Source: Agreia bicolorata
GTDB lineage: Bacteria > Actinomycetota > Actinomycetes > Actinomycetales > Microbacteriaceae
Reading direction: 5' to 3'
NCBI RefSeq assembly: GCF_000938265.1
Contig: NZ_JYFC01000006.1
Span: 1-64,000 of the forward strand
Length of the DNA: 64,000 nucleotides
Positions 39,797 to 50,197 of the stretch are shown piece by piece; within the stretch, counting starts at the first letter, position 1; each line of letters begins with the position of its first letter. The notes below the pieces were generated by a model that did no database searches, had not been told where the DNA came from, and was given only the letters and a program-made list of their open reading frames with translations. The translations under genes were made by a program, and so were the position numbers.

Positions 39797-39870
39797 GCGC
39801 CCTTAGCTCAGCTGGATAGAGCGTCTGACTACGGATCAGAAGGCCAGGGGTTCGAATCCCTTAGGGCGCA
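39797..39870 (+). tRNA. tRNA-Arg (anticodon ACG), integration site of the element
   Basis: GCGCCCT at 39797-39803 pairs with AGGGCGC at 39863-39869, discriminator A. The D-arm (TAGCTCAGCTGGATAGAGC), anticodon stem CTGAC/GATCAG region with anticodon ACG, and T-loop GGTTCGAATCC are all present. The 3' half from 39829 is part of the 44-bp att repeat, so an element integrating here rebuilds the complete tRNA. TAGGAT at 39773-39778 is a possible -10 box. Confidence 0.95.
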
Positions 39871-39872
39871 CA
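39829..39872. repeat. attL core, 44-bp direct repeat
   Basis: This 44-base segment (CTACGGATCAGAAGGCCAGG to CGCACA) covers the anticodon-to-end half of tRNA-Arg and is repeated exactly at 50154-50197. The distance between them is 10.3 kb and the interval contains a tyrosine integrase near the left end, so the repeats are the left and right attachment sites. Confidence 0.92.
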
Positions 39873-39876
39873 ACGG

Positions 39877-39907
39877 AAAGCGACTCGCGAAAGCGGGTCG
39901 CTTTTTT
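39877..39907 (+). terminator. tRNA-Arg terminator inside the left end
   Basis: AAAGCGACTCGC pairs with GCGGGTCGCTTT around GAAA, followed by T-rich sequence. A near copy (AAAGCGGCTCGC, GCGGGCCGCTTT) follows attR at 50210-50240. If the crossover is inside the 44-bp core, this left copy came with the element and replaces the original terminator. Confidence 0.85.
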
Positions 39908-39995
39908 GTTTGCCCCGAGAAGACGCGGATCCTGGCGGGTTTCAATAAGAAGGCATCCGGCGGGGTGCCGGGTACCCGTTGTGGTGGAACTGGCT

Positions 39996-40019
39996 TTGAC
40001 AGCAACCATGACAGCAACG
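39996..40019. repeat. Left arm-type integrase site
   Basis: A 24-bp sequence made of two tandem TGACAGCAAC units 12 bases apart. It is repeated exactly at 50037-50060 near the right end, same orientation. Paired short repeats placed just inside att cores are characteristic arm-binding sites for tyrosine integrases. The assignment is by position and repetition. Confidence 0.72.
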
Positions 40020-40040
40020 TAGGTGGATACGGTCTCGAAA

Positions 40041-40325
40041 TCAGACATTGTCGCCTCGATCTTCGCGGTGCTGGGCTTTGAGGGCCTCAAGGGCGATCGA
40101 ATAGATCTGGTCGTCGATCAGGTCGTCGAGGAAGGCAGCTTCGATGTCGTCGAACGACCCCGGCGTGTCGTTCAAGAGGTCGTCGTGGAGGCCCGCTGTC
40201 TTTGTTTCGCCGGGCAGATAGCGCCACGCGGTCAACGCGTCGATGAGTTGCTCACGAGAGATCTCGCCCCGCGAGTACTGCTCAGACACTACATAGGGCC
40301 AGTTCAGTGGTTCACTGTTCGTCAT
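40041..40325 (-). CDS. Small acidic protein, unknown, in the element
   Basis: ATG 40325 gives 94 aa: YVVSEQYSRGEISREQLIDALTAWRY then an acidic C-terminus. It overlaps the upstream gene by 14 bases, so the two form a pair. There is no recognised domain. The helical N-terminus and small size would suit an antitoxin- or antirestriction-like partner, but there is no direct evidence. It is the gene nearest attL. Confidence 0.6.
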   Translation of the reverse strand: MTNSEPLNWPYVVSEQYSRGEISREQLIDALTAWRYLPGETKTAGLHDDLLNDTPGSFDDIEAAFLDDLIDDQIYSIALEALKAQHREDRGDNV

Positions 40326-47928: not shown

Positions 47929-49331
47929 AGGCGGTCAAGGTATCGAGGGCTAGGCCATTGGGCTTTGTCAGCGGGGAACCACTGCGTGGGGATCTCGAAA
48001 TCGCTTTGCCCCAGTAGAGCCAAGCTGCTCTGATCGATGTCTGTAGCAAGCTCGGTAAAGTGCAGCGAGTACTTTCCGTTCTCATAAATCGGCATTAGCA
48101 AGGCTGCATCGAACGCCCAGTGGTGAAGCTTGCAGAGGCTAATCCCATTCTGGACAACATCCAGGTCGTACTTGCTCCAAGCCAAGATGTGTGCGGCATC
48201 CACTCCAGATCGAACTCCAGGGATGCCTCCAAATACGCCGCCACAAAAGAGACAGCGCCCAGAGTATGCATTTCGAACACTGGTGCTGAACGATCGACCG
48301 GAAGCGCCGCGCATCTTCGCGAGCCTGTATTGGTGAGCCGATCTGGCACTAACCTCGGGTTCCTCTTCGCCGATCTCGTCTGGTGGGGGAAGAGCTGGCC
48401 CGAGCGTTGGTGCGATGCCCAGAATCTGTTCCAGGACTGGGAGGGGGTCTGCTCCCGGCGACGAATTCCACGGATCCGTTGCCCCTTGCAGATCACGGAT
48501 GAGGGCAGTAACGGCTGAGACTAAGACAGTAGTGACCGCGCCACCGGAAGCCATGAAGTCGCGGTGAAAGGCCACACGCGCTCGTATTGCGTCCGGTAGG
48601 CGATCGATCGAAGCATAGACGGCCTCGATTCGTTGCCAACGTTGTTCAACCCCGATTGAGACGCTGTCGGTGAGGTTGTCAAGATTGACGAAGGAGGGAT
48701 GAATGGTGACCCGATCGGCCATTCCGGTGAACTCTGTATCTGGCCCAAATCCGACCCGGGACAGCACATATCCCTTTGGCCGAATGACTGGAAGTCCTCG
48801 TTCGGTTTTCGAGTATTCACGTCGAGGATCGGGGAGCATCAGCATCGAAGCAATCATTCGACCGATTTGAAACTGAGGGCTACGAAGTGACCGAAGTCTG
48901 GGCTTCCCGCTCTCTGCCGGCTCGAGCTCGAGGTCAGTATCTCGGACTAGGCCGTCGGGCCACCACAGATAGAAAGTCCACCCCTGAAGGCTGATGGCCG
49001 TGTACCCCGAATGAGATCCAACGACCTCGTACTCACCTCGCCCGCCTGAGCGCTGAAATCCAATATGCATTGCCGTCCCTGTGGCGACTTCTACAGAGCG
49101 AGCGCCCTGAATCCAAATATTAGCGCCGACGGGAATTAGAAGCTCGCGTCCTGCGGGCGACGCGCGGGAGGGCGGATGAGCCGTGAGAACTTTCTTTACT
49201 CGTTCAAGCGCCGGGCAAGCCCGGCGGGGTCGAGCTGCGGTGCGTCCGGTCCTCGCTCCGCTGCGGTCCGGGCGCTCCTCGCTCGACCGTGTTCGACTTG
49301 CCTGGTTAAACAGCAAGACCCGCCGATCCAC
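47895..49331 (-). CDS. HNH endonuclease, probable restriction partner of the methyltransferase
   Basis: The protein is up to 478 aa. The C-terminal HNH domain reads YSGRCLFCGGVFG, then VDAAHILAWSKYDLDVVQNGISLCKLHHWAFDAAL, which has the CxxC, AHI, NG and HH-FD marks of the HNH_2 fold. The large N-terminal part is likely the DNA-recognition domain. Fused HNH restriction enzymes lie next to their methyltransferase in this way. The N-terminal start is doubtful: the first 50 codons are very Arg-rich and cross a GC hairpin near 49200-49220, so the true start may be internal. Confidence 0.78.
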   Translation of the reverse strand: MDRRVLLFNQASRTRSSEERPDRSGARTGRTAARPRRACPALERVKKVLTAHPPSRASPAGRELLIPVGANIWIQGARSVEVATGTAMHIGFQRSGGRGEYEVVGSHSGYTAISLQGWTFYLWWPDGLVRDTDLELEPAESGKPRLRSLRSPQFQIGRMIASMLMLPDPRREYSKTERGLPVIRPKGYVLSRVGFGPDTEFTGMADRVTIHPSFVNLDNLTDSVSIGVEQRWQRIEAVYASIDRLPDAIRARVAFHRDFMASGGAVTTVLVSAVTALIRDLQGATDPWNSSPGADPLPVLEQILGIAPTLGPALPPPDEIGEEEPEVSARSAHQYRLAKMRGASGRSFSTSVRNAYSGRCLFCGGVFGGIPGVRSGVDAAHILAWSKYDLDVVQNGISLCKLHHWAFDAALLMPIYENGKYSLHFTELATDIDQSSLALLGQSDFEIPTQWFPADKAQWPSPRYLDRLYADLAISFTS

Positions 49332-49391
49332 GAGTGTGGGGCGAGTCCGCTGTTCGAGCTTATCCGTTGCCTTGCTATGCAGTTATCGAGC

Positions 49392-50018
49392 TCAACTCAG
49401 GTCGAAATCAAGCTCTGTCATTTGCGGAGGAGGCTTGGCGCGAGTCCAACTGTTTCCGAGAGCGGTCCGCTCTTCGGCCGTGAACTTCAAGTCCGAACTT
49501 CCCGGAACCAGGATCTGGCCGCGAAGCAACGATAGGTCGAGGTTGATTGGGTAATCCTTGAGGTGCGCTGACCTTGCGAATGCTCGTCGGACATCATCAT
49601 GCGCTTCGGCATAGTTCCACCCGTTCACCTCCGCCAGTACCTCTTTCACGTCCTTCAGATCCAAAGCGCGCCCAACGTGTTGGGTGTTGTGGCACTTCTT
49701 GCAGAGAGCGATAAGGCCCGCGAGGACCTGGACCACCTCAGACTCTCGAAGCTCGAAACGCCAGATCTCGTGGCAGTCGGGATGCTGCACACGTCGCTTT
49801 GGGCCGAGGGATTCACCCCCGCAGATCTCGCAGCGCTTGCCAGCTCGAGCCGAGACGGCGAGCCGGATTCGATCCCATTCAGATTCCCGTGCGATGCCGC
49901 GCACGTTGGAACCGAACACGTTTGTGGGCAGTGCGTCAGCACGCATCCGAACATGGCCGGCTGGGGAGTGCGGCAGCAGCGTGGGGAGTAGCAGGTCTGC
50001 GAGAGCTGGTTCAGTCAC
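49392..50018 (-). CDS. Second HNH nuclease of the element
   Basis: From GTG 50018 the protein is 208 aa. The zinc-knuckle HNH reads RCEICGGES, then HPDCHEIWRFE, and IALCKKCHNTQHVG, a complete CxxC-H-N/H set. The N-terminus VFGSNVRGIARESEWDRIR fits the family found with solitary HNH proteins in actinobacteria. A longer frame from 50063 would overlap the integrase arm site and is less likely. It may be a homing-type or defence nuclease; its role with the methyltransferase is not known. Confidence 0.72.
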   Translation of the reverse strand: MTEPALADLLLPTLLPHSPAGHVRMRADALPTNVFGSNVRGIARESEWDRIRLAVSARAGKRCEICGGESLGPKRRVQHPDCHEIWRFELRESEVVQVLAGLIALCKKCHNTQHVGRALDLKDVKEVLAEVNGWNYAEAHDDVRRAFARSAHLKDYPINLDLSLLRGQILVPGSSDLKFTAEERTALGNSWTRAKPPPQMTELDFDLS

Positions 50019-50036
50019 GATGCGGCCCACGATCGA

Positions 50037-50060
50037 TTGACAGCAACCATGACAGCAACG
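50037..50060. repeat. Right arm-type integrase site
   Basis: An exact copy of 39996-40019: two TGACAGCAAC units separated by 12 bases. It lies 94 bases inside attR, while the left copy lies 124 bases inside attL, both in the same orientation. Confidence 0.72.
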
Positions 50061-50153
50061 CATCGCTGTCCCAGGTGATCCAACGAGAGCGGGGGAGTGA
50101 AGGATGACCCGCCAGACATACGCAGTGGACTTGGATACATGGCCCGAACCTTT

Positions 50154-50197
50154 CTACGGATCAGAAGGCCAGGGGTTCGAATCCCTTAGGGCGCACA
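50154..50197. repeat. attR core, 44-bp direct repeat
   Basis: Identical to 39829-39872. It is a tRNA-Arg 3' half with no 5' half in front of it (the preceding bases CCGAACCTTT do not extend the tRNA), so it is the far junction of the element and not a tRNA gene. Confidence 0.92.

Follow-up and report, generated by a model that had tools for sequence, protein, structure and literature searches.

Background

Actinomycete integrative and conjugative elements (AICEs) are recognised, in the passages of PMC3218068 on which we draw, by the joint presence of an integrase (Int), a replication initiator (Rep) and an FtsK-type transfer protein (Tra), with int not located between rep and tra, and the same passages hold their transfer to be double-stranded. 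Here we describe such an element from Agreia bicolorata, located at positions 39829-50197 of a 64,000-nt stretch of contig NZ_JYFC01000006.1 (positions 1 to 64,000; hereafter, the window), together with a conserved noncoding sequence inside it, block A, which we propose as a candidate single-strand origin (sso), and with related islands that have lost the mobility genes.

For the Streptomyces plasmid pIJ101, passages of PMC4170104 (2014) put rep and the sso (sti) on either side of spdA2, which encodes a 135-aa product, and report that the vector pIJ702, without a functional sso, builds up single-stranded DNA (ssDNA). As far as the available parts of PMC4595007 go, its Table 2 gives sso-like regions in integrative and conjugative elements (ICEs) of Streptococcus and Mycoplasma, and none that is actinobacterial. 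We found no paper announcing an sso in an AICE, which is weak evidence, subscription journals being mostly outside the search. The AICE kind itself is already known; the candidate sso and the candidate satellites are the new part.

The element at tRNA-Arg(ACG)

The initial annotation, made from the letters of the window, had placed an AICE at 39829-50197, in tRNA-Arg(ACG) and between identical 44-bp repeats, and this was confirmed. Precisely, the tRNA gene lies at 39797-39871 on the plus strand (ARAGORN; Rfam tRNA, 69 bits), the attL core, which is the tRNA 3' end, at 39829-39872 (+) and the attR core at 50154-50197 (+). By sequence self-comparison the two 44-nt cores are 100% identical and spaced by 10,325 bp, and an exact repeat of this kind over a tRNA 3' end is no chance event. 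Just inside each end there is a 24-nt direct repeat (39996-40019 and 50037-50060, both +), 100% identical between the ends and made of two TGACAGCAAC units apiece; these repeats sit where arm-type integrase sites would be expected, and we refer to them as arm-type repeats for this putative role. At 39870-39922 (+) the element also has its own copy of the tRNA-proximal hairpin and T-run, a probable terminator, 91% identical to the copy outside attR (50203-50255).

Starting from attL, the minus strand encodes a small conserved gene (40041-40325), which is 61-62% identical in the elements of Clavibacter sp. VKM Ac-2872 (L011), Rathayibacter tanaceti (L012) and a further genome of the same family (G248, stretch L077), 77% identical in an island of the same-genus genome G005 and partial in that of G004; an ORF of 179 aa with no assigned function and no Pfam or PHROGs match (40312-40851); a tyrosine integrase of 386 aa (40848-42008; PF00589, 1e-28); an excisionase (Xis) whose start may be internal (42005-42250; HTH_17, 2e-12; TIGR01764, 3e-10); the HUH replication initiator RepSA (42196-43635; PF20199, 2e-152); a small conserved protein (43638-44060; 43% in L011/L012, 69% in L078); the FtsK/SpoIIIE-type transfer ATPase, Tra (44057-45517; PF01580, 3e-14; Walker motifs); and a conserved gene of the tra module (45466-45993), present in 9 of the 15 loci searched. 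A divergent conserved gene (46124-46717, +; 70-72% in L011/L012/L077) forms the border of the cargo slot. The gene order int-xis-repSA-tra, with Int, Rep and an FtsK-type Tra together, agrees with the criteria by which AICEs are recognised in PMC3218068.

The claim that the core genes keep their motifs stood for RepSA (HFH and YIAKY) and for the FtsK-like protein (GSSGSGKAS and VVIDE), while for Int it stood only as a near-full match to the Pfam domain. The Walker A pattern was present in 10/10 FtsK proteins and Walker B in 9/10 (exception L140), and the HUH and tyrosine patterns in 7/8 RepSA proteins, the exception, L081, having a frame interrupted by a stop. RepSA scores 508.7 bits on Pfam PF20199 (threshold 34) and 367 bits on the NCBIfam equivalog of pSAM2 RepSA, below its curated cut-off of 700 bits. 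No GntR or NUDIX regulator was found among the window proteins scanned. Judging from its sequence, 39829-50197 is a RepSA-type (pSAM2-like) AICE of 10.4 kb in tRNA-Arg(ACG).

Relatives with an empty tRNA-Arg site, the presence of which had been set in advance as a test of this reading, were found. We compared seven same-genus genomes and counted the copies of the core in their fetched tRNA-Arg regions. The core was single in five of the seven (G001, G002, G003, G006, with one mismatch, and G007) and repeated in the other two (three copies in G004 and two in G005), and RepSA was absent anywhere in all seven. The flanks are joined in G001, where the window sequence of 52869 resumes ~67 bp past the core, and in G002, where that of 53376 resumes ~83 bp past it. 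The site has, as AICE sites do, a tRNA 3' end, direct repeats and unoccupied counterparts elsewhere.

The layout of the element is shared by L011, L012 and L077, in which int, xis, repSA, the small gene, ftsK, the conserved gene and the divergent gene are followed by the cargo slot, blocks A and B (see below), a second HNH gene, the arm-type repeat, which all three have at both ends, and the att repeat. The target is tRNA-Arg(ACG) in L011 and L012 (ARAGORN); the L077 stretch stops short of the tRNA, and the flank of G248 is 80% identical to R. tanaceti over 1.4 kb, which fits a Microbacteriaceae host. RepSA is 69-70% identical in the Clavibacter and Rathayibacter genomes and 54% identical in three Kineococcus genomes. 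Among 398 sampled genomes from the family, with the window's own counted in each figure, RepSA was found in 6 (E<=1e-40), the integrase in 19 (E<=1e-50) and the 191-nt block region in 12 (E<=1e-5). Because RepSA occurs in 6/398 genomes and the Clavibacter and Rathayibacter elements are syntenic, the window element is not the sole AICE of Microbacteriaceae. Gene set, att cores, unoccupied sites and syntenic elements in other genera support the AICE reading of the initial annotation.

Block A, a candidate single-strand origin

Comparison of the window with the islands of G004 and G005 revealed a sharply bounded noncoding block at 49183-49351, of which block A (49183-49282, +) is the candidate sso of the sti type. 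Block A is built of a 26-nt box, then a GC-rich hairpin, then a longer second hairpin. A and B together outdo all of their 200 shuffles in folding, whichever strand is taken (z -3.7 and -3.8), and a perfect stem of 6 bp or more, beginning no further than 3 nt past the box, was present in 30/43 sites versus 451/8600 shuffles. Changes on both sides were seen in 4/29 predicted pairs of block A, a modest sign of covariation.

Box and hairpin were also found in pIJ101 (at 7267), pJV1, pSN22, pTSC2 (L167) and three further Streptomyces plasmids, with box scores of 18.1-29.5 across the seven. Over ~100 million positions of random sequence there was no score of at least 22, four of at least 20 and eight of at least 18. 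Since random positions never reach 22 yet sometimes reach 18-20, we considered the box sites of pIJ101, pJV1, pSN22, pTSC2 and L169 as strong and those of L168 (21.1) and L170 (18.1) as weaker. The box matrix scores of L138-L157 are circular, the matrix being built from those sites; this does not apply to L011-L014, L077, L079-L081 or the plasmids. A covariance model, R1, trained on 11 sequences including the window's, gave E values of 0.0015 for pSN22, 0.0079 for L169, 0.0087 for L168, 0.012 for pTSC2 and 0.058 for L170.

The link to pIJ101 is drawn from the box matrix, from the stem next to the box and from BLAST. A RepSA plasmid of S. formicae, recognised by R1 (E 3.5e-4) and aligned by BLAST to the pIJ101 site (78.8%, E 1e-9), ties the two together, and block A is common to pIJ101 and pJV1 at ~80%. 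In pIJ101 the box lies between the gene 6966-7208 (annotated as hypothetical), which we take to be korB, and a 135-aa ORF at 7970-8377. It is on the spdA2 side away from rep, which fits the map order given, without coordinates, in the passages of PMC4170104. In L171, a pIJ101-derived plasmid with nshR that appears to be pIJ702-like, 1947-7338 of pIJ101 is missing, and hence the box too. As this plasmid has rep without block A, block A was rejected as a double-strand origin.

In 26 of the 27 loci counted, block A is antisense to rep: 9/9 in Microbacteriaceae and Kineococcus, 10/11 among the class loci, 3/3 among the RepSA plasmids (L159, L160 and L164) and 4/4 among the plasmids with an annotated rep (pIJ101, through L171, pJV1, pSN22 and L169). 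This count omits L161 (weak box) and L167, L168 and L170 (no annotated rep) and, as the loci are related to one another, no probability is given for it. Sequence and hairpin in common with sso-bearing plasmids, and a fixed polarity to rep, are features by which an sso can be recognised, and they indicate that block A is probably a sti-type single-strand origin, that is, a start site for second-strand copying.

Of 355 class genomes, R1 picked up block A in 35 (E<=0.01), a figure that counts the window's own. We fetched 20 contexts, 11 of which have RepSA within the stretch; these contexts were 20 of the 41 R1 places (three of the 41 were already in the set), mainly the best ones, and 11/20 is no random sample. 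We also read 17 RepSA loci one by one (the window, L011-L015, L077-L079, L081, L172, L158-L161, L163 and L164), and 12 of them have block A. Outside this count stay seven RepSA loci whose flanks extend for only ~1.5 kb (L001, L003-L007 and L103), in which there was no strong block A match, and 16 of the 21 records in one further listing.

Several candidates were dropped as block A: L085 and L086, which are partial; Gluconobacter L106, which covers model positions 58-97 only; and L118 and L127, which have no box and were also excluded from the position-weight matrix. A short query against plasmids (106 records) was left unused, the 40 listed being mostly matches to a GC-rich stretch in a nuclease gene. 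The block had no match in the phage collection, where a short query gave seven short matches. At gathering score, the window holds no Rfam family other than two tRNAs, and Rfam gave nothing credible on blocks A and B (two chance-level matches). Block A was rejected as coding sequence by eye, from plus-strand stops in two frames of several copies and from minus-strand changes not limited to third positions. In the S. formicae circular record L159, one RepSA AICE is repeated in tandem, with two int-rep units and two A blocks, either a true array or an assembly artefact.

Islands without mobility genes

At the same tRNA-Arg, G005 carries an island of 9.9 kb and G004 one of 6.4 kb. By tblastn neither has xis, repSA or ftsK, and in G005 int is reduced to a broken 3' part. 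Both islands keep the att cores (with two mismatches in the left, inner, core of G004), the arm-type repeats, with small changes, and blocks A and B, and the small attL-side gene is present whole or, in G004, in part. In the three pairwise comparisons among the window and the two islands, the block is 91.7-94.7% identical, the left end 81.1-86.9% and the right end 68.5-75.3%. The cargo includes KAP/PifA-like ATPases in both islands and, in G005, also a ThsB-like TIR protein, SLATT membrane domains and an AAA_15/OLD-like ATPase.

Elements that are missing core modules and may be moved by a helper are known as cis-mobilisable elements (CIMEs). The two islands are like them, with att ends shared with an ICE and no working int or transfer genes. 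A further reduction is seen in G243, where the conserved gene, ftsK and repSA are lost in a gap relative to G135, the flanks of this gap being 92% and 80% identical to G135; G243 keeps an integrase gene, whole or in part, block A and an IetAS-like pair, and the cargo of G135 differs. Such islands may move with a helper AICE, and we regard them as candidate satellites.

On contig C5 of G004 (L052/L053), a 16-kb prophage and the defence-type island stand in tandem at the tRNA-Arg site. The prophage, which has matches to terminase, portal, head and integrase proteins, is ahead of the island.

Cargo and the probable phage-defence slot

The cargo of the window element comprises a cytosine-C5 DNA methyltransferase (46900-47928, +; PF00145, 2e-65; PADLOC MTase_II, 3e-78; TIGR00675, 2e-70; PCQ and ENV motifs visible in the translation) and an HNH_2 nuclease (47895-49070, -; PF13391, 9e-9). 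For the latter, the start is probably the ATG at 49070 rather than the listed 49331, because the listed 5' part falls inside the noncoding block; the start codons were also considered. A second HNH-type protein lies beside attR (49392-50018, -, with a putative start; phrog_5200, 5e-24; 62-66% in L011/L012/L077).

The GC content of the cargo is 0.568, compared with 0.626 in the int-tra module and 0.66-0.67 in the chromosome, in agreement with the lower GC first noticed. The claim of restriction-modification (R-M) cargo held for the C5-methyltransferase; the restriction partner would be the adjacent HNH_2, a plausible candidate. By their position, the two may form a type II R-M pair. In PADLOC the HNH_2 protein has a weak HNH match (4.5e-4), and its matches to plasmid-borne proteins are confined to the HNH domain.

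The slot has the divergent gene on one side and block A on the other, and in four of the five elements sharing this layout it holds defence-type genes. Besides the window, these are IetAS in R. tanaceti (IetA, 6e-144; IetS, 2e-278), a type II restriction endonuclease (2.5e-111) with a methyltransferase, Vsr and an OLD-like ATPase in G106, and an SMC/Lamassu-like ATPase in G248 (LmuB, 7e-25); in Clavibacter the slot holds unknown proteins, two of the three of which were scanned and had no Pfam match. In G135, G243 and G378 block A directly adjoins the divergent gene and the cargo is on the far side of A; that of G378 includes methyltransferase-like proteins, HNH_2 and an Mrr-like protein.

Block B and neighbouring sequences

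Block B (49303-49351, +) is a conserved 49-nt sequence forming a separate hairpin after A, elsewhere mostly 3' of DUF3800 genes, with 1/11 predicted pairs altered on both sides. In plasmids of Arthrobacter and Kocuria, and in G358, it comes immediately after DUF3800 genes. In a scan of 356 genomes of the order it was found in 14, the window's included, and 9 of the 13 further loci were after DUF3800. This context is lacking in the other four of the 13, and also in the AICE copies, in G289 and in G355, where block B has a tRNA-Arg and a piece of the second HNH gene close by. L183, L184 and L186 were dropped as block B for having no DUF3800 neighbour; L185 resembles block B, and DUF3800 was not found beside it. 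In the six other loci tested, Rfam had no match at block B (three weak matches lay elsewhere). Within Micrococcales, copies of hairpin B immediately 3' of DUF3800 genes are those of L104, L105, L083, L175-L182 and L187, and in the AICEs a stand-alone copy of it adjoins the candidate sso.

The window holds two insertions at tRNA-Arg, the AICE and a stretch from ~50.26 to ~52.87 kb, since the far-side sequence in G001 and G002 resumes ~67 and ~83 bp after the core, respectively. The second, of ~2.2 kb within 50198-52868, is downstream of attR, absent in G001, and flanked by two identical 93-bp copies of a repeat, at 50644-50736 and 52866-52958. This insertion, the 24-nt repeats, the second HNH gene and the noncoding block are additions to the initial annotation. 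Beside the G106 element, L078 has a 44-bp repeat like a tRNA 3' end at 12361 and 14955, 2.6 kb apart, possibly a second small insertion; a direct-repeat search in L173, also from G106, gave no result.

Interpretation

We consider it likely that the window carries an integrated AICE, that block A is its sso and that the related islands are mobilised by such AICEs. In this scheme, Int and Xis would recombine the 44-bp cores, aided by the arm-type repeats, so that a circle is excised and tRNA-Arg is restored; RepSA would then nick the circle and start rolling-circle replication, and block A, folding on the displaced single strand, would serve as the single-strand origin at which second-strand synthesis is primed by host factors. 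Moving double-stranded DNA into the recipient would fall to the FtsK-like protein. The cargo beside block A would be open to exchange and largely of a defensive kind, in the window a C5-methyltransferase with an HNH nuclease, and islands without working int, rep and tra, with att ends, arm-type repeats and block A, would probably be mobilised by AICEs.

Some observations weigh against this scheme. R1 scores pJV1 at E 0.58 only and leaves the pIJ101 site unreported; L153, the sole polarity exception, carries block A on the repSA strand; L164 has a box without an adjacent stem, the box of L161 is weak, and block A is absent in L015, L172, pMR2 and the L163 stretch (pMR2 being of another RepSA subfamily in passages of PMC3218068). 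The covariation support for block A is small. In the HNH_2 protein no second or recognition domain was recognised. No close integrase, which could act as helper, was found in G004 or G005, and G289 has a solo copy of A and B beside secA (L082, 9680-9858), with no AICE genes found in the 20-kb stretch; the block can thus persist as a scar, and its retention can be mere decay.

The last two points bear on whether the G004 and G005 islands are dead remnants rather than mobilisable satellites, a serious possibility to which we give somewhat less than even chances. The broken 3' part of int in G005 speaks for it as well, while both islands keep both ends including the arm-type repeats (the left core of G004 with its two mismatches), have long open cargo genes and, in all three comparisons, show higher identity in the block than at either end. 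That the window element is itself a degenerate, immobile genomic island is improbable: no GntR or NUDIX regulator was seen among the proteins scanned, but the core genes have open reading frames that match Pfam domains over long stretches, the att cores are identical and the same layout exists in other genera.

For block A, another function, in place of an sso, would be that of a cis-acting transfer locus (clt) to which the FtsK-like Tra binds, which could be suggested by its inverted repeats, by its retention in islands without tra and by its pIJ101 neighbour, the gene that we take to be korB. The clt of pIJ101 is close to korB in passages of PMC3583192, and pSAM2 has no described clt in those of PMC9513070. 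The same passages of PMC3583192 describe clt loci with different repeats in pIJ101 and pJV1, and because block A is shared by these plasmids, at ~80%, it is unlikely to be clt; its polarity to rep, nearly fixed at 26/27, and the absence, by eye, of tandem short repeats argue likewise. A transcribed small or regulatory RNA of AICEs is very unlikely. The fold is conserved, with 0/200 shuffles folding as well (A and B together), and there are some compensatory changes; however, this holds on either strand, the folding being equal on both (z -3.7 and -3.8), no Rfam match is above threshold, and block A is present in plasmid sso regions.

Beyond the sso reading of block A, a broader one can be put forward as doubtful at present: many RepSA AICEs across Actinomycetes would share a sti-type sso with Streptomyces rolling-circle plasmids, and the defence islands would be true satellites having cis sites only (att ends, arm-type repeats and sso), excised by AICE integrases and passing an ssDNA stage in spite of the double-stranded transfer of AICEs. 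The element is a compact AICE in a probably non-mycelial (Microbacteriaceae) host, with defence genes in the slot of most relatives examined. The candidate sso would be a part of AICE replication for which the literature searched gave no description, and the naturally reduced islands show which cis sites persist. Both the existence of AICE satellites and the completion of AICE rolling-circle replication become directly testable.

Comparison with known systems

Like the pSAM2-type AICEs, as presented in passages of Ghinet et al. 2011 (PMC3218068), the window element is tRNA-integrated and has a tyrosine Int, Xis, RepSA and an FtsK/SpoIIIE Tra; unlike them, it measures 10.4 kb, has a Microbacteriaceae host and defence-type cargo, its RepSA reaches 367 bits against the cut-off of 700, and it has no GntR or NUDIX protein among those scanned. 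With the Clavibacter and R. tanaceti elements it has in common the gene order, the tRNA-Arg(ACG) target, the arm-type repeats, blocks A and B and the second HNH gene, whereas their int, repSA and ftsK are 61-70% identical and their cargo differs, being IetAS in R. tanaceti and unknown in Clavibacter.

The G004 and G005 islands resemble the DAICEs of PMC9513070 in that core modules are missing and movement may occur with a helper, but DAICEs, in the passages at hand, keep traB, and the islands are without working int, rep and tra. Block A is like the sti/sso of pIJ101, pJV1 and pSN22 in having the 26-nt box and the adjacent hairpin antisense to rep; it differs in being located in integrative elements, with another Rep family and outside Streptomyces, the position of sti in pIJ101 being deduced from map order. 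Finally, in passages of PMC4595007, sso1 of ICEBs1 is likewise an sso on an integrative element that was spotted by its similarity to a plasmid sso, in that case in an ICE of Bacillus.

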